A stretch of DNA of 64,000 nt from NCBI RefSeq assembly GCF_902859745.1, contig NZ_CADIJW010000001.1, positions 372,001 through 436,000 of the forward strand, written 5' to 3'. The translations under genes were made by a program, and so were the position numbers. The notes under the pieces are model-generated. The model was not told the origin of the DNA and ran no database searches. It worked only from the letters and a program-made list of their open reading frames with translations. The DNA comes from Achromobacter dolens (GTDB lineage: Bacteria > Pseudomonadota > Gammaproteobacteria > Burkholderiales > Burkholderiaceae_B). This document shows positions 28,371 through 35,298 of the stretch, piece by piece. Positions within the stretch are counted from its first letter, which is position 1. Each line of letters starts with the position of its first letter.

Positions 28371-28683
28371 TGGTGCCCGAGACCGGAATCGAACCGGTAC
28401 GGCCTCGCGGCCGAGGGATTTTCGTACCACTTCGGCTTTCGCCGCCGGCGCGCGGAGCGCCGTTCGTGGTCTGGAGCACGCCTTCACCATAGCCTTGCGG
28501 CCTTAGGTGCCCGCCGTCTGCTCTCTACACCTTCCCGGTTCTTTCGATCCGGGCTTGGCTCGGCGTTGGCTCGGAACAAGTCCAGGGCATTCGCCGAGTT
28601 TGACGGGCTACACCTCTGGAGTTTCCTCCGGAGGGCTCAAATGGATTCAAGTCCCTTGTGTCTACCAATTTCACCACTCGGGC
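28371..28683 (-). tRNA. tRNA-Leu(UAA), interrupted by a group I intron
   Basis: The minus strand begins GCCCGAGTGGTGAAATTGG (acceptor, D arm) and ends CCGGTCTCGGGCACCA (T arm, acceptor, CCA). Acceptor strands GCCCGAG and CTCGGGC pair perfectly with discriminator A. The 5' exon is 28649-28683 (35 nt, ending AGGGACTT) and the 3' exon is 28371-28422 (52 nt, starting AAAATCCCT). Joined, they give an 87-nt class II tRNA with anticodon stem AGGGA/TCCCT, loop CTTAAAA and anticodon UAA. Without splicing, the locus misreads as a broken tRNA. The exon boundaries follow from the tRNA fold and the rule that group I introns start after U and end with G. Confidence 0.9.
28423..28648 (-). ncRNA. Group I self-splicing intron (Azoarcus-like, subgroup IC3 type)
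   Basis: This 226-nt insert sits after U34 of the anticodon. Conserved core segments match, from memory, the Azoarcus tRNA-Ile intron: CAACGCCGAGCCAAGC (28553-28568), GAAGGTGTAGAGA (28522-28534), then CACCTAAGG and GCTATGGTGAAGGC. The exon end CUU can pair with an internal GAG (intron positions 11-13), giving the expected U-G wobble at the 5' splice site, and the last base is G. A P2 hairpin GGAG-GAAA-CTCC is also visible. There is no room for a homing endonuclease, so mobility would need a partner in trans. The insertion site equals that of the cyanobacterial tRNA-Leu(UAA) intron. Confidence 0.88.
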
Positions 28684-28815
28684 ATTGAGGTTCCGACAGG
28701 AAACCGCAATGGGATACCTGGGTGTGCGGCGCGAGCGCGCAGCGGTATCCGGCGGGCGTGACTATACCACTCGCGGGCAGGCGGCCCGTCATGCAAGGCC
28801 GCCCCTGTGGAAAAC

Positions 28816-29739
28816 TCAGCCGATGAAGCGCACCGTCTGGCGGGCGCGTTCGTCCACCTCCAGGGTGAAAACGTCGGGCCGAGCGTAGTGGCCAACCACG
28901 TCGAAGTCATAGCGCGCGCGCACCAGTTCGTCGACATCGATGGTTGCCGTCAGCAGGCCGGTCTGGCCGTGCAGCGGGCCGGCCAGTACGTCGCCCAGCG
29001 GTCCGACGATGAGCGAGCCGCCGTTGATGAGGGGACGCTGAGGATCCCAGCCGGGCACGTCCAGGCCCAGCTCGGCGGGCGAGGGTTGCACCTGGCAGGC
29101 GCTGATGACGAAGCAGCGGCCCTCGTGGGCGATGTGGCGCATCGAGCATTGCCAGATGTCGCGTTCGTCGACGGTGGGCGCGCACCAGATCTGTACGCCC
29201 TTGGCGTACATGGCGGTGCGCAGCAGCGGCATGTGGTTTTCCCAGCAGATGGCGCCGCCGACGCGGCCCGCGGCCGTCTCCAGCACGGGCAAGGTCGAGC
29301 CGTCGCCCTGGCCCCAGATCAGGCGTTCGGTGCCGGTGGGCATCAGCTTGCGGTGCTTGGCGGCCAGGCCGGTGGCCGGATCGAAGTACAGCGCGGTGCA
29401 GTACAGCGTGCTGCCGGCGCGTTCGATCACGCCGATCACCAGGCTGGCCCCGGTGCGTTGCGACAGCGCGGCCAGCGCGTCGGTCTCGGGACCGGGCACG
29501 TCGATGGCGTTCTGGTAGTAGCGGGCGTAGGCGTCGCGCCCTTCGGGCAGGCGGTAGCCCAGGCGGGTGCCGAAGATCTCGCCCTTGGGGTAGCCGCCCA
29601 GCAGGGCTTCGGGCATGACCACCAGCGCGGCGCCAGAGGCGCTGATCTCGGCCTCGAAGGCCAGGATCCGTTCCAGGGTGGCGTCCTTGCCTTCAGGCGA
29701 GGCGCCGATCTGCAGCGCGGCGACGGTGGTGGCGGTCAT
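28816..29739 (-). CDS. Nitrilase
   Basis: This 307-residue member of the carbon-nitrogen hydrolase superfamily has the triad E44 ([13 protein letters not shown]), K131 ([14 protein letters not shown]) and C165 ([11 protein letters not shown]). The CWENHMPL and [10 protein letters not shown] stretches are typical of true nitrilases (nitrile to acid and ammonia) rather than amidases. It acts in the cytoplasm; aliphatic against aromatic preference cannot be read. A LysR gene is divergent at 86 bp and probably regulates it. Confidence 0.88.
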
Positions 29740-29825
29740 GGGGGTTCCTTTTTCACAGAGGAGTCGATGCGTCCTAGTGTCGGGGGCGGCCTAAAATCAA
29801 TCAATCCTGCCTGGCGATAAATGAT

Positions 29826-30767
29826 ATGAACCAGATCGATATCGAGTCGACCGACCTGAACCTGCTCAAGGTGTTCGAGGCGATCTACGACGAGGGCGGC
29901 GCGGGCCGCGCCGCGCTGCGCCTGGGGGTGACCCAGTCGGCGGTCAGCGCGGCGCTGGCGCGGCTGCGCGCGCTGTACGCCGACCCGCTGTTCGTGCGCA
30001 CCGGGCGTGGCCTGTCGCCCAGCCTGCGGGCGCGCGAGCTGCGGCCGATCATCGGCGAGGCGTTGGACAAGTGCCGGCAGAGCCTGTCGCTGGCGCGGCC
30101 TGGACCGGCCGGGTTCGCCGGGCGTTCGGTCACGCTGGGGCTGTCGGACGACTTCGAGATCGCGCTGGGGCGCGAGGCCATCGCGGCGCTGGCCGAGGCT
30201 GCGCCGGGACTGCGTCTGATCTTTCGCCAGACCCACAGCCGCCTGGCCGCCGACATGCTGATGGCGCGCGACGTCGACCTGGTGATCGCGTCCGGCGGAC
30301 TGATCGCGCCCGCATTGCAGCGCGTGACCGTTGGGCAGGGCGACTATGCCTGCCTGGTCGATCCGGCCAGCCTGGCGCCGGGCCAGGATGCGTTGTCCGT
30401 GGACGATTTCACCCGGCGTGCGCACGTGCTGGTGTCGTCGGGCGGATTCATCGGCGTGGTTGACGAGGTGCTGCACGCGCAGGGATTGAGGCGGCGGGTG
30501 CTGGCGGCGACCACGCACTTTGCGGCGCTGGCGTTTCTGCTGCGTGGCGGCGACGCGCTGGCGACCCTGCCGACCCACGCGGCGCGCGGCCTGGCGGCGG
30601 TCACGGGGCTGCGGCTGCTGCCGTGCCCGGTCGCCATGCCGGGCTACGCCATCGAGATGGGCTGGCGCGCCGATGCCTTGCGCGATGAGGCCGTGGCGGT
30701 GGCTCGCCTATCCCTGCTGGGCCTGCTGCAGGGCTACGGTTGGGCCGCGGCGCCTGGCGCCCGGTGA
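29826..30767 (+). CDS. LysR-family transcriptional regulator
   Basis: This 313-residue regulator shows an N-terminal winged helix (LNLLKVFEAIYDEGGAGRAA, then LGVTQSAVSAALARLRALY and FVRTGRGLSPS) and a substrate-binding domain. The DPLFVRTGRG segment places it near the NodD/NahR-like LysR group, which often senses aromatic inducers. It is divergent from the nitrilase gene and likely controls it. Its 3' end overlaps the convergent AraC gene by 60 bp. Confidence 0.88.
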   Translation: MNQIDIESTDLNLLKVFEAIYDEGGAGRAALRLGVTQSAVSAALARLRALYADPLFVRTGRGLSPSLRARELRPIIGEALDKCRQSLSLARPGPAGFAGRSVTLGLSDDFEIALGREAIAALAEAAPGLRLIFRQTHSRLAADMLMARDVDLVIASGGLIAPALQRVTVGQGDYACLVDPASLAPGQDALSVDDFTRRAHVLVSSGGFIGVVDEVLHAQGLRRRVLAATTHFAALAFLLRGGDALATLPTHAARGLAAVTGLRLLPCPVAMPGYAIEMGWRADALRDEAVAVARLSLLGLLQGYGWAAAPGAR

Positions 30768-31694
30768 TTGACCGGTGACGCGTTTATAGGCGCGGCTGAA
30801 GGCGGCTTGGGAGGTATAGCCGAGGCGCTCGGCCACGGTGTCGATCGGCAAGCGCTCGTGGGATAGCCATTGGCTGGCCAGGCGCATGCGCAATTCGGTG
30901 GCGTAGCGCAGCGGCGGCGTGCCGATGGTGGCCTGGAAGCGTTGCGCGAAGACCGATCGCGAGACATTGCATTGCGCCGCCAGTTCTTCCACGGTCCAGT
31001 CGCGGCCGGGCTGGCGATGCAGGGCCAGGATGGCGCGCGCCAGCCGCGGGTCGCGCAGGGCGGCCACCAGGCCGGCGGCATCATCGCAACCGCTTTCGAT
31101 CCAGCCGCGCACGGTCATGGCGGCCACCACTTCCGCCAGGCGCGCCAGGATGCCGGCAAAGCCGATGCGTCCGGCGCAGATTTCGCGCTTCATGGCGTCC
31201 AGCAGCGCCAGCGCGCCCGGGTAGCGTTCGCTGGCGGCGTCCACCAGCATCAGGCCAGGCATCAAGGGGCCGAGGCCCCGCATGCCGCCCAGGTCGAACG
31301 CCATGCAGCCATAGAAGAGCACGGCGCTGGGCGTGTCGTGCGTGCTGGGGCAGGTGTCGACGCCGCTGACCTGCTCGCCCAGCGGCGCCGCGGCCACCTC
31401 GTCGATATCGCGCACCGGGGCGCGCGGGTCGGATAGCAAGTGATGGGCGTCTCCCTGGGGAATGAGCACGGCGTTGCCCGCGGACAGCGGATGCAGCGCG
31501 CCGTCGGCGCTGCGCAGCACGGCGTTGCCAACCGCCAGATAGTGGAAGTAGGCGTGGCCGGGGCGGGCGCGGAAGCCCAGGCCGACCGGCGCCCCGACCT
31601 GGATGCGGCGGTATTGCACGCCGCGCAGGCGCATGCCGGTCAGCAGTTCGCTGATCAGGTCGGACGAAAGCGCAAAGGCATCCGTGGCATTCAT
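30708..31694 (-). CDS. AraC-family transcriptional regulator
   Basis: This 328-residue regulator has an N-terminal cupin-type sensing domain (about residues 20-200) and a C-terminal pair of helix-turn-helix motifs (WTVEELAAQCNVSRSVFAQRF and IDTVAERLGYTSQAAFSRAY). The layout matches the cupin_6/AraC group, commonly next to exporter or oxidoreductase genes. It is divergent from the MFS exporter gene at 100 bp and probably regulates it. It overlaps the LysR gene tail to tail. Confidence 0.87.
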   Translation of the reverse strand: MNATDAFALSSDLISELLTGMRLRGVQYRRIQVGAPVGLGFRARPGHAYFHYLAVGNAVLRSADGALHPLSAGNAVLIPQGDAHHLLSDPRAPVRDIDEVAAAPLGEQVSGVDTCPSTHDTPSAVLFYGCMAFDLGGMRGLGPLMPGLMLVDAASERYPGALALLDAMKREICAGRIGFAGILARLAEVVAAMTVRGWIESGCDDAAGLVAALRDPRLARAILALHRQPGRDWTVEELAAQCNVSRSVFAQRFQATIGTPPLRYATELRMRLASQWLSHERLPIDTVAERLGYTSQAAFSRAYKRVTGQSPGARRRGPTVALQQAQQG

Positions 31695-31794
31695 TCAGGT
31701 GTTTAGGTCAAAAATCAAAGATTATTCATCATAGATCATCCTGGATGCCATCCCTAGACTGGCCGCTGTGATGTTTTCCTGAGGATGTTCTGCG

Positions 31795-33030
31795 ATGAGT
31801 CATGGTGTCTGTGAAGCGGTCTGCGATGGCCGCATGTCGCGCGTGGCGGATGCGCCGCCCGCCTGGATGGCGGTGTTTTCGCTGGCGATGGGGGTGTTCG
31901 GCTTGCTGACCGCGGAGTACCTGCCGGCCAGCCTGCTGACGCCGATGGCGCTCGACCTGGGCGTTTCCGAGGCGCTGGCCGGGCAGGCGGTGACGGTGAC
32001 GGCGGTGGTGGCGTTGTTTGCCGGACTGCTGGTGCCGGGTCTGACGCGCGCGCTCGACCGGCGCGTGGTGCTGCTGGCCTTCAGCACCCTGATGGTGGCC
32101 TCCAATCTGTTGGTGGCAATGTCTTCCAGCCTGGCGGTGCTGCTGGCGATGCGTATTTTGCTCGGCGTTGCGCTGGGCGGTTTCTGGAGCATGGCGGCGG
32201 CGGTGGCCATGCGCCTGGTGTCGCCCGCCTTGCTGCCGCGCGCGTTGTCGATCATCTTCAGTGGCATTGCCGTGGGGACCGTGGTGGCGGTGCCGCTCGG
32301 CAGCTATCTGGGCGGCAGGTATGGCTGGCGCAGCGCCTTCGTCGCCGCGGCCGCGGTTGGCGTGGCGACGCTGGCGTTCCAGTGGCTCACGCTGCCGCGG
32401 CTGGCGCCGGGTCGGACCGCGCGGCTGCGCACGGTGCTGGAGGTATTGCTGCGTCCCGGCATCGCCGTGGGCATGTTGGGATGCGTGCTGGTGCACACCG
32501 GCCACTTCGCGCTGTTCACCTACATCCGGCCGTTCCTTGAAACCACGACAGGCGTCGGCGCCGACGGACTGGCCTTGATGCTGCTGGGTTTTGGCGTGGC
32601 GAATTTCGCCGGCACCCTGCTGGCGGGATGGTTGCTGGGCCACAGCGCCCGCGCCACGCTGGTGCTGATGCCCGCGCTGGTGGGGGCGGCGGCCCTGGCG
32701 CTGGCCTTGCTGCCGACGACCGTAACGGGACAGGCGCTGCTGGTGGCGCTATGGGGAATGGCGTTCGGCGGGGTGCCGGTGGCGTGGTCGAACTGGGTGG
32801 CCAGCGCGGTGCCCGACCAGGCCGAAAGCGCGGGCGGCATGGTGGTGGCGTCGGTGCAGTCGTCGATCGCGGCCGGCGCGGCGGCCGGTGGCGCGATGTT
32901 CAGCGCCAACGGCATCGTCGGCGTGTTCGTGGCCGCCGGCATCCTGATGCTGCTGGCGGCGCTGTTGATCGCATTGCGGGTGCGCATCCACGCGCCTGGA
33001 CGCGGCCCCGGTCCGGCAGTGCATCTTTGA
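31795..33030 (+). CDS. nepI: MFS exporter, NepI-like
   Basis: This 411-residue, 12-helix transporter is of the DHA1 drug:H+ antiporter group. The stretches EYLPASLLTPMALDLGVSEA, AGQAVTVTAVVALFAGL and GVALGGFWSMAAAVAMRLV align residue for residue with E. coli NepI, a purine ribonucleoside exporter. NepI-like identity is good for the family, but the substrate may differ. An AraC regulator is divergent. The ATG at 31795 is behind GAGGATG. Confidence 0.82.
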   Translation: MSHGVCEAVCDGRMSRVADAPPAWMAVFSLAMGVFGLLTAEYLPASLLTPMALDLGVSEALAGQAVTVTAVVALFAGLLVPGLTRALDRRVVLLAFSTLMVASNLLVAMSSSLAVLLAMRILLGVALGGFWSMAAAVAMRLVSPALLPRALSIIFSGIAVGTVVAVPLGSYLGGRYGWRSAFVAAAAVGVATLAFQWLTLPRLAPGRTARLRTVLEVLLRPGIAVGMLGCVLVHTGHFALFTYIRPFLETTTGVGADGLALMLLGFGVANFAGTLLAGWLLGHSARATLVLMPALVGAAALALALLPTTVTGQALLVALWGMAFGGVPVAWSNWVASAVPDQAESAGGMVVASVQSSIAAGAAAGGAMFSANGIVGVFVAAGILMLLAALLIALRVRIHAPGRGPGPAVHL

Positions 33031-33138
33031 GACCTACGCCGCCTGAGGCCGGCGCGGGACGAGGCCGCGCCAGCCGTGCGCGCGACTGCGCCGACGGTAT
33101 CATGTGCCATCCTCGTTTTGGCAACCCGCCGTACGGTC

Positions 33139-34419
33139 ATGGTCCCTGCATCGACTCCGCTTCTCGACCGCCTGCTTGCCGACGGCGTCATTCGCCCGGA
33201 TCACCACGCCGCCGCGCGCCAGCGTCTGGGCGAGGGCGGCGCCGAACCGTGGACGTCGCTCGGCGAGGCGTTGTTCTGGCTGGTGGACGAACACATCGTT
33301 TCCGACGAGGATCTGGCGGCCATCGGCGAGCTCTCCGTGACCGAAGCCGCCTTCGCCGGCAACGCCACCCGTCGCCAGGCACTGGCCGAGATGGACGCGC
33401 TGATGCAGCGCAAGCTTGAAGAATATGAACGGCAGGTGCGCCGGGTCGCGCTCAAGCGTGCTTTTCCCGGTCCGCGCCGGGCATGGCTGGGCGGCGGCGT
33501 GATCGCGGTGGCCGCGGCGGGATGGTATCTGTTCGCGCCGGCCACGCCGCCGCAGTGCGATGATGCCGATGTGCAGAAAACCCTGCGCGCCAGCCTGTTT
33601 ACCTCGCGCCTCCAGCAGATGTCCCGCAATCCGCTGGCCGGGGGAGCGGCGCCGGCCGACCTGTACCTGGCGACGTTTTCGGATGTGAACGAAATCGGCT
33701 ACATCAAGCCGGAACGGTCGCGCGGCTGCGCCGCGACGCTGAAGGTCGGCGAGGCCACGTCGGTCCTGGCCTACACCATCGGTCCGAACGACAAGGGCGA
33801 GATGATGATCGCCGGCGCGGATCCGCGCGTGGTGCGGGCCCGTTACGGCCAGCTCGATGCCGATGGCAAGCCGCGCGATGTGGGCCAGCCGGCGGGCGCG
33901 GCAAGGCTCGCCGCCGCCTTCGAACAGGGCGTGGCGGCGTTCGACCAGTTGGCCCGGGGCGCGGCGCGCAAGGCAGCCCAGGACCGGCAGCGCGAACGCA
34001 TGGGCCTGCCGGCGGAAACCGACACGCGCGCCGTGCGCAATATCCAGCCGCTGGGCGACTGCAAGGATCTCGGCGGCGGCAGGTGGTCATGCCGCCTGCA
34101 GGTCGAGTACCGCGACCGCCTGATGTCCACCATCGGCCGCGCCGACTGGCAGGTGTTCGAAGGCGACTTCGAATTCCTGCAGGAAGGGGACGCGTGGCGC
34201 GTGGGCGAGCCGTTCACGCGCCAGTACATGGATGCGATCGTGCGCGGCCGGATGGCGGAGCTGAAGGGCGACGAGGCGGCGGCGCGGCTGGAGCAGATCC
34301 AGCGCCAGCGGCCGCAGGCCGCGCCGACGGCCGAGTCGGCGCCATCCGTGGGAGCCTTGGCGCCCGCCAGGACGGGCGGCCGCGAGCATCGCGGCGACGG
34401 CGCCGTCATCAACAAATAG
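33139..34419 (+). CDS. Membrane-anchored protein, unknown function
   Basis: This 426-residue protein begins with an about 110-residue soluble region (LLADGVIRPDHHAAARQRLG, ALFWLVDEHIVSDEDLAAIG) recalling the MshEN/GSPII-type N-terminal helical domain that starts type II secretion and pilus ATPases. One transmembrane helix follows (AWLGGGVIAVAAAGWYLF), then a long outer region containing two paired cysteines. The tail is Ala/Pro-rich. I do not recognise the family. The ATG at 33139 is chosen over an upstream in-frame start for lack of a signal or ribosome site there. Confidence 0.6.
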   Translation: MVPASTPLLDRLLADGVIRPDHHAAARQRLGEGGAEPWTSLGEALFWLVDEHIVSDEDLAAIGELSVTEAAFAGNATRRQALAEMDALMQRKLEEYERQVRRVALKRAFPGPRRAWLGGGVIAVAAAGWYLFAPATPPQCDDADVQKTLRASLFTSRLQQMSRNPLAGGAAPADLYLATFSDVNEIGYIKPERSRGCAATLKVGEATSVLAYTIGPNDKGEMMIAGADPRVVRARYGQLDADGKPRDVGQPAGAARLAAAFEQGVAAFDQLARGAARKAAQDRQRERMGLPAETDTRAVRNIQPLGDCKDLGGGRWSCRLQVEYRDRLMSTIGRADWQVFEGDFEFLQEGDAWRVGEPFTRQYMDAIVRGRMAELKGDEAAARLEQIQRQRPQAAPTAESAPSVGALAPARTGGREHRGDGAVINK

Positions 34420-34447
34420 GACGGGTTGTGGTTAGTCCCGCGCGCGC

Positions 34448-35080
34448 TCAGGCCGTGATGGCGTCCGGTTCCCGACGGCGGGCGAAGACGAACACGTGGT
34501 GGTATTTGTCGCGCATCGGATGGCGCGGCTGTTCGACGCCGGCGATCGGCGGCACGAAAGGCGTGAACAGGCCAAGCGCGTCGATATGTACCGGGAAGGG
34601 CGCGCGTTCGGGCGTGTCGTTGTAGCCCAGGACGAGCAGGCCGCCCGGCTTGAGCACCGCATGGCATTGCGCAAGCATGCGCTCGTAGTCGGCCTGTTCG
34701 TTCAGGCCGTAGCCGATCAGGCCGTTGGCGATCACCACGTCGAAATAGCCCGGCTCGTAGAGCGCCGCCATCTCGGTGGCGCTGCCTGTCAGGTGGCGGC
34801 CAGGCACGCCGTAGCGGGCCTGTTCCGGATCCATGTCGAGCGAATGGAATTCCGGCTTCAGCAGCCGCGGATAGTGCCAGGTGTATTCGCCCATGCCCAG
34901 GAAGAGGCAGCGCCCCGGGCCTTGCGGGCCGTCCGCCTGGCGGTTGAGATAGCCGAAGATCTGTTGTTCCAGGAAGGCCCGGTTCGGCGCCCGCAGCGGA
35001 AACTGCACGCCGCAGCGCGCGGCCAGGGCGGGAGACAACCGGAACAGGCCTGATTTGAATGCGTCTTTGAGTTTGGGCAT
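34448..35080 (-). CDS. Class I SAM-dependent methyltransferase
   Basis: This 210-residue enzyme has a Rossmann methyltransferase core: CLFLGMGEYTW as motif I, SLDMDPEQARYG with the acidic residue that binds the SAM ribose, YFDVVIANGLIGYG as motif IV and VLKPGGLLVLGYND as post-motif II. The substrate is not inferable. A longer N terminus is open, but the ATG at 35080 opens the conserved-looking MPKLKDAFKSGLFRL start. It lies between the membrane protein gene and tRNA-Ser. Confidence 0.75.
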   Translation of the reverse strand: MPKLKDAFKSGLFRLSPALAARCGVQFPLRAPNRAFLEQQIFGYLNRQADGPQGPGRCLFLGMGEYTWHYPRLLKPEFHSLDMDPEQARYGVPGRHLTGSATEMAALYEPGYFDVVIANGLIGYGLNEQADYERMLAQCHAVLKPGGLLVLGYNDTPERAPFPVHIDALGLFTPFVPPIAGVEQPRHPMRDKYHHVFVFARRREPDAITA

Positions 35081-35298
35081 ACGGATCGCGCCTGGCTGTG
35101 TCGCCGGTTCTTTGACCGGGTTCGCCACCGCGAGCCGCCCGGAATGCGCCAGATAGTAGACGAAATCGTTTCTATTCAGGAGTTGTTCAGTTGTTAATGA
35201 TATTTGCGCAACAGGGGCGCGAGCGGACACGTCCTGGACCGTGGTGACGGCGGGCGGCTCGGGCAAATCGAGGGGGATGGGGACGGTGGGCGGTCTTC

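Follow-up and report, generated by a model that had tools for sequence, protein, structure and literature searches.

A predicted self-splicing group IC3 intron in the tRNA-Leu(UAA) gene of Achromobacter and its relatives in replacement genes of integrative elements

The window, that is the whole stretch of DNA analysed here, covers 64,000 nucleotides of Achromobacter dolens (contig NZ_CADIJW010000001.1, positions 372,001 to 436,000). On its minus strand, positions 28371-28683 give a complete 87-nt tRNA-Leu(UAA) once 226 nt are removed, with exons of 35 and 52 nt. The insert lies between U34 and A35, the insertion site of bacterial tRNA-Leu(UAA) introns, and is devoid of an endonuclease gene. 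The features of the locus are as follows, the helices being those of the structure discussed below:

28649..28683, minus strand: 5' exon of tRNA-Leu(UAA), 35 nt, ending in C32-U33-U34
28423..28648, minus strand: group IC3 intron, 226 nt, with G as terminal base
28636..28638, minus strand: guide GAG of P1, pairing with exon CUU, with a U-G pair at the splice site (P1 is CUUGAA/UUUGAG)
28613..28634, minus strand: P2 hairpin with a GAAA loop at 28622-28625; six of eight pairs changed on both sides
28602..28608, minus strand: 5' strand of P3, whose 3' strand lies in 28509-28518
28560..28597, minus strand: P4 and P5, from RNAalifold and the pairing test
28529..28559, minus strand: P6 and P6a; four of five P6a pairs changed on both sides, P6 invariant
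28519..28523, minus strand: 5' strand of P7, GAGCA, with the 3' strand UGCUC at 28474-28478
28486..28508, minus strand: P8 with the motif CCUAAG..UAUGG, from comparison and the pairing test
28427..28469, minus strand: P9 region, made of a closing helix, a variable hairpin (five of six pairs changed on both sides) and a GAAA-capped hairpin
28371..28422, minus strand: 3' exon of tRNA-Leu(UAA), 52 nt, including the encoded CCA

Run plainly, ARAGORN reports no tRNA at the interrupted locus, while its intron mode calls a tRNA-Leu(taa) with a 226-nt intron and the joint after U34. Both splice sites are fixed by comparison rather than assumed, since CTT is directly joined to AAAATC in seven uninterrupted order-level loci (L041, L042, L043, L046, L048, L049, and L050), all called tRNA-Leu(taa). 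The intron mode and these seven relatives agree with the sequence-only reading of the locus, made before any database search, which had placed a 226-nt insert after U34 of an 87-nt tRNA-Leu(UAA) with correct coordinates and lengths. In intron mode the joint is often a few bases off, and the tRNA is then called Phe, Ser, Pro, Gln, or Thr; joints of related loci were re-placed by the terminal G and the P1 pairing, and the following were then set by hand: L105, L150, L153, L161, L163, L229, and L243 to Leu(UAA), L180 to Ile(CAU), L129 to Leu(UAA) with a joint at 33/34, and L135 to Lys(UUU), while L116 and L190 stayed untyped.

From 37 distinct sequences (34 of Achromobacter and three others), RNAalifold proposes P1-P6 and P8-P9 unaided, in a model where 27 of 74 pairs show changes on both sides and from which two extra short helices were not adopted. 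In the adopted pseudoknot structure, 97.9% of the cells are standard pairs, against 94.9 in shuffles. Changes on both sides affect 24 of 66 pairs; shuffles give 5.7, and none of 500 is as high. Standard pairing falls to 29-43% in slid versions of the same structure. P7, the guanosine-binding helix of this intron family, which pairs into a pseudoknot with P3, is invariant in the 37 closest sequences; over 100 introns, aligned with a model that lacked P7, 482 of 495 cells are standard and exchanges occur at three of the five positions. Over the same 100 introns 610 of 694 cells of P3 pair, the two poor pairs being the outermost one and another in which C faces C in 26 of the 100 rows. P1 fails in three rows, which are shifted by the alignment, and P10 can be read by eye as AUUU with exon AAAU.

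The Achromobacter intron shows a P3-P9 core with a P3/P7 pseudoknot, a terminal G, and a P1 guide that forms a U-G pair at the 5' splice site, features used to recognise group I introns of subgroup IC3; its P8 motif corresponds to the 11-nt receptor. The group I core, the CUU/GAG guide, the U-G splice pair, and the final G proposed from the letters of the window are all borne out by the covariation of the fold and the reading of P1. Its description as Azoarcus-like stands for the fold, given the GAAA loop on P2 and the CCUAAG..UAUGG motif in P8, but not for the closest kin in the tree presented below.

We could not obtain a match of the Achromobacter intron to Rfam RF00028, either at the gathering cut-off or at E<=10, which is literally the outcome that had been named in advance as speaking against a group I intron. 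It counts little, because RF00028 scores the Azoarcus-type intron below its own cut-off too: against a cut-off of 50, related controls reached 49.1 bits (Azoarcus-type Ile(CAU)), 45.1 bits (Stutzerimonas Leu(UAA)), and 33.8 bits (Arg(CCU)), and a Lysobacter copy had no listed match, while two cyanobacterial introns scored 78.8 and 88.7 bits. A match to RF00028 is best regarded as a practical test and not as a defining feature, and the comparative evidence supports assignment of the intron to group I, subgroup IC3.

Concerning the decoding of UUA, the A. dolens genome (an assembly of 114 contigs) has 52 tRNA matches, with the leucine anticodons CAG (twice), TAG, CAA, and GAG, and none with TAA. 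The patterns searched for an uninterrupted Leu(UAA) arm gave no hit in this genome nor in A. ruhlandii, and no split Leu gene beside tRNA-Gly/tRNA-Cys was seen in the former. The tRNA census and the absence of an uninterrupted arm support the earlier, conditional suggestion that this is the only UUA-decoding tRNA of the genome; no second UAA gene was found, although a missed copy is conceivable in 114 contigs. Splicing of the only UAA gene found should then be needed for decoding UUA, a codon that accounts for four of 1713 leucine codons in 36 long ORFs of the window, a low estimate because the selection favoured length and high third-position GC. The same genome also contains a 3' half of tRNA-Leu(CAA), starting from the anticodon loop, on a contig different from that of the intact gene (C26:3957-4006, read as L044:458-507); it has the appearance of the distal end of an island sitting in Leu(CAA).

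We searched a 316-nt query in 61 genomes (that of the window, 36 others of the genus, and 24 at the order level). A full-length match is present in the A. dolens genome and in all 36 other Achromobacter, at 88-100% identity; together with the paired changes in the fold, this conservation speaks against a chance resemblance. Among the 24 order-level genomes, three from three other families match at full length (73-80%; G043, G044, and G057), 20 have partial matches fitting the exons, and one has none. The 5' exon is identical in all 37 Achromobacter loci read, and the intron starts as in the window in A. pulmonis (L261) and A. ruhlandii (L316). Moreover, the identities of the intron and of the upstream DNA to the window rise together (Spearman 0.74, p 0.0003, calculated on those other Achromobacter loci, 19 of 29, that retain an upstream match), and within Achromobacter the intron looks inherited. 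Monophyly of the Achromobacter introns is absent from the core tree, yet not rejected (p 0.38), so that more than one gain in the genus is possible. In one genome (G021) the interrupted gene occurs twice, near both ends of a single contig (C1:3706 and 6411582), probably an assembly overlap. The stretch between tRNA-Ser(UGA) and tRNA-Leu(UAA), at 28684-35298 in the window, varies from ~5 to 11 kb across the Achromobacter genomes read, and is perhaps an insertion hot spot.

To place the intron among its relatives, we used a covariance model of the intron core (R1), built from the clade of the window. It matches 58 of 399 order-level genomes and none of the remaining 341, as well as 21 of 274 at the class level and 26 of 299 at the phylum level, the A. 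dolens genome being included in all three counts and some genomes in more than one. From the model-positive loci, 100 cores were chosen for completeness and spread, leaving out partial matches, near-duplicates, and Ile(CAU) introns at 33/34. The resulting tree is based on 144 columns, and 41 of its 94 inner branches are open with the bootstrap unsettled. Host genes of the 100 cores are Leu(UAA) (71, plus one at 33/34), Ile(CAU) (11), Arg(CCU) (six), Leu(CAA) (four), Ser(UGA) (three), Thr(UGU) and Lys(UUU) (one each), and two untyped. Several introns can coexist in a genome, for example in Leu(UAA) and Leu(CAA) of G385, in Leu(CAA), Ser(UGA), and Leu(UAA) of G200, and in Leu(CAA) and Ser(UGA) of G243.

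The window falls in a clade of 40 rows (support 100/99) comprising 35 Leu(UAA), four Leu(CAA), and one untyped intron, from Achromobacter, Azonexus, Stutzerimonas, Lysobacter, Rhodanobacter, Variovorax, Hydrogenophaga, Pararobbsia, and others. Those of Leu(CAA) are nested inside it and have C-G in place of U-G at the splice site, which fits a movement from Leu(UAA) to Leu(CAA). A separate clade (99/98) groups nine of the 11 Ile(CAU) introns, including the Azoarcus-type L122, plus one Leu row, and the other two Ile(CAU) introns sit beside cyanobacterial rows. The data reject a grouping of the 71 Leu(UAA) rows in a single clade (p 0.0002), although a class defined by its insertion site does not require common descent. 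Contrary to the earlier view that the closest-looking intron sits in a different tRNA, the nearest kin of the Achromobacter intron are thus Leu(UAA) and Leu(CAA) introns of other beta- and gammaproteobacteria. Between the two histories considered from the sequence, the clade tests favour movement between genes and lineages, with inheritance applying inside the genus, and they support a clade of introns that would move between tRNA genes and between lineages.

A few loci extend this range of hosts and positions. In two Alcaligenaceae genomes (L338 in G134 and L344 in G243), it is a neighbouring tRNA-Ser(UGA), not Leu(UAA), that bears an intron. ARAGORN places introns at a second insertion point, 33/34, in tRNA-Ile(CAU) of L169, L188, L189, L193, L197, L198, L200, and L202, and in Leu(UAA) of L256. 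A Leu(UAA) intron from a metagenome-assembled Legionellaceae genome (Tatlockia, L260) groups with the cyanobacterial ones, by either transfer or contamination.

It is very probable, judging from sequence comparison, that the tRNA-Leu(UAA) of Achromobacter is interrupted by a small group IC3 intron of a mobile clade and self-spliced to an 87-nt tRNA. In the transcript, the intron would fold around P4-P6 and P3-P9, guanosine would be bound in P7, the chain would be cut after U34 while CUU is paired with GAG, and U34 would then be joined to A35 at the terminal G, producing an ordinary tRNA. The fold and the exon joint are established by comparison, and the splicing chemistry would be that of the intron family. 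A dead tRNA with an inert insertion, with another tRNA reading UUA, would agree with the failure of plain ARAGORN and Rfam to detect the gene, but we regard it as extremely improbable: the exons make a complete tRNA and the first is invariant in the 37 Achromobacter loci read, the fold is preserved by paired changes, and no other UAA gene was found in the genome. It is nearly as improbable that the intron of Azoarcus tRNA-Ile(CAU) was recently transferred to tRNA-Leu, as the common fold class and similar core strings might suggest; such a transfer is disfavoured by the tree, where the two introns belong to two separate and well-supported clades (99/98 and 100/99). Vertical or direct descent from the cyanobacterial tRNA-Leu(UAA) intron would account for the same tRNA and the same position, but is also very unlikely, as a clade uniting cyanobacteria and Achromobacter is rejected (p 0.005, for a grouping named after seeing the tree) and 341 of the 399 order-level genomes lack any match to the model. 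Moreover, four cyanobacterial introns score 35-49 bits against 99-185 in the clade of the window (Ile(CAU) introns: 47 for L137, 39 for L139, and 68-88 for the others), scores that are only suggestive because the model was built from that clade.

The self-splicing intron of a mobile clade being thus the preferred reading, a possible vehicle is indicated by loci outside Achromobacter. L098, from the family of the window, and L255, from Lysobacter concretionis, belong to different orders, but have both exons in common, with 99.6% identity in the intron, 93-94.5% in the 200-nt flanks, and 92% over 1.9 kb. In L255, an uninterrupted tRNA-Leu(UAA) starts after tRNA-Gly and tRNA-Cys but breaks off at the core CTTAAAATC, leaving only its 5' half; new DNA follows, and then a complete intron-bearing tRNA-Leu(UAA). 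A second CTTAAAATC with the matching 3' half lies 41 kb further, delimiting both ends, and is adjoined by a gene for a 399-aa tyrosine integrase, while TrbI, TrbF, TrbL, TrbE, TrbB, and TraG are encoded within 13 kb of the first end. The halves, the cores, the integrase, and the Trb genes indicate a conjugative element that lies inside the host tRNA-Leu(UAA), has broken it, and carries a complete gene.

We found the same arrangement in 11 distinct loci (L098, L100, L105, L212, L220, L241, L250, L255, L287, L302, and L304): a 5' half in nine versions, CTTAAAATC, a conserved element end, and an almost invariant intron-bearing replacement gene, which starts 167-203 nt from the start of the core, inside the element. 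In none of the 11 genomes did the pattern search find an uninterrupted Leu(UAA) arm besides the broken half. Among the intron-bearing Leu(UAA) loci with flanking sequence, 166 in all with many from Achromobacter and some repeats, these 11 stand against 155 that lack a split half in the upstream DNA read (up to 1.5 kb). A twelfth, in Stutzerimonas stutzeri KOS6, has a half gene that deviates at two points from the usual sequence, plus a trb gene, as would a decaying relic. TrbI is present in the stretch read for nine of the 12 element loci. The set of 11 is biased because most loci were found through the intron; when the element end alone was used as query, it was found in three of 399 order-level genomes, all three carrying the intron-bearing gene, although these are the source of three of the 11 loci and the pattern was made from such loci.

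The far end of the element was less accessible. A first pattern, with one fixed base wrong at least for Lysobacter, did not retrieve it in any of the 11 genomes, and a second one found it in one of six. No second core is present in the 40 kb read of G385, so that both ends were found in one of the two elements read, and tblastn with the Lysobacter integrase gave no match in the other loci longer than 1.2 kb, most of which stop short of the far end. Three viral contigs matching the element-end pattern were discarded as chance, being the same stretch three times with neither a tRNA half nor a tRNA, and phage records gave five partial matches only (12-38% coverage). Among 72,556 plasmid records, 1255 match 80% or more of the length of the window's query, with identities that nearly always lie at 60-80%; they come mostly from Enterobacterales and Acinetobacter, and no feature is annotated under the match among the 40 matches listed. 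On two plasmids, an intron-bearing tRNA-Leu(UAA) of another type, apparently intact, lies near aac(3)-IId (L387:2495-2793 and L391:2495-2794), and a Bradyrhizobium conjugative plasmid has one ~750 nt from trbI (L392:1995-2284). In Cupriavidus necator pBB1, DNA resembling the element end is accompanied by a 5' exon and the core of an intron (L388:2100-2360), with no tRNA called and no 3' exon seen, probably a decayed copy.

Introns of this kind in tRNA-Leu(UAA) are already known. One described in Pseudomonas in 2002 reportedly shares the tRNA and the position, a similar length, and an 11-nt motif in P8; it concerns another lineage and one isolate, as opposed to a whole genus as sampled here, and a Stutzerimonas relative found here falls in the clade of the window. 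The cyanobacterial and plastid tRNA-Leu(UAA) (trnL) intron has in common the tRNA, the insertion point, and the U-G of P1 at the splice site, but is distant in sequence and separated by the rejected clade test. The Azoarcus tRNA-Ile(CAU) intron shares the IC3 fold, the GAAA loop on P2, and the terminal G, but differs in its tRNA, its site after U36 (L122), and its clade; its crystal structures are named in PMC3984707. PMC4033280 lists such tRNAs in cyanobacteria and in alpha- and betaproteobacteria. As for the elements, the genomic islands of Islander, as presented in PMC4383910, restore the split tRNA gene with sequences that they carry; those in anticodon loops likewise combine a tyrosine integrase, a core in the anticodon loop, and a split host gene, but there a fragment restores the host gene, whereas here it stays broken beside a complete intron-bearing gene. 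It has been proposed (Sugahara et al., 2012, cited by PMC8371274) that archaeal tRNA introns spread with elements whose attP bears an intron; this also makes a mobile element the vector of a tRNA intron, but with archaeal introns and recombination at attP instead of a whole replacement gene. The literature searched, with most subscription journals outside it, yielded no study of a tRNA intron in Achromobacter nor of an element with an intron-bearing tRNA, and within it the element-borne replacement gene looks new.

These elements raise the question of whether the Achromobacter gene itself is a fixed replacement from an ancient conjugative element and not a native gene that gained its intron in place. 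Its 5' exon is identical to that of the replacement gene in L241 and one base from most others, and five of the eight native Alcaligenaceae genes read have another T-stem. However, its T-stem is common to the other three and unlike that of the replacement in L255, and the upstream DNA, in the window as in the other loci of the genus that were read (1.5 kb for 30 loci and ~205 nt for seven), has neither a split native half nor an element end (the latter is absent also in L001, L009, and L027); no trb gene was found either. Synteny argues in the same direction: tRNA-Ser(UGA) lies upstream on the same strand, 5-11 kb away, in the window and in nine of 10 further Achromobacter genomes, and less than 300 nt from Leu(UAA) in seven of eight uninterrupted Alcaligenaceae loci, with the same order and strand in three. 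A fixed replacement is therefore unlikely, and gain in place somewhat likelier.

Whichever its origin, the position of the intron relative to the core allows a tentative proposal. CTTAAAATC corresponds to the anticodon loop and the first stem bases of tRNA-Leu(UAA), and the intron divides it as CTT|AAAATC. It is a serious possibility, though one we hold with reserve, that the intron acts as an att-site shield, protecting the replacement genes and the Achromobacter gene against element integrases. Integrases of trb-type conjugative elements would recognise CTTAAAATC in the anticodon loop of tRNA-Leu(UAA); the element would break the host gene and supply a complete replacement in which the target is split by the intron. 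Such a replacement would be neither attacked nor recombined out, and the host would then depend on the element. An intron-less replacement would place the element's own target ~200 nt from its end, whereas the intron would take the target out of the DNA and yet be spliced out of the RNA. The positions, the halves, and the absence of other arms are observed; we presume the real site of the integrase, the lack of recombination at a split gene, and selection for it. Alternatively, the donor gene may merely have happened to bear an intron.

As plain ARAGORN and Rfam both miss the interrupted gene, annotated Achromobacter genomes may be lacking their only UUA tRNA. If the shielding proposal is true, lineages whose only tRNA-Leu(UAA) gene has the intron, such as Achromobacter, would be immune to this class of elements, and the persistence and spread of catalytic introns devoid of an endonuclease in tRNA-Leu(UAA) would be explained. 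The element loci provide an actual vehicle for group I introns in tRNA genes, and may also provide a selective reason for them.
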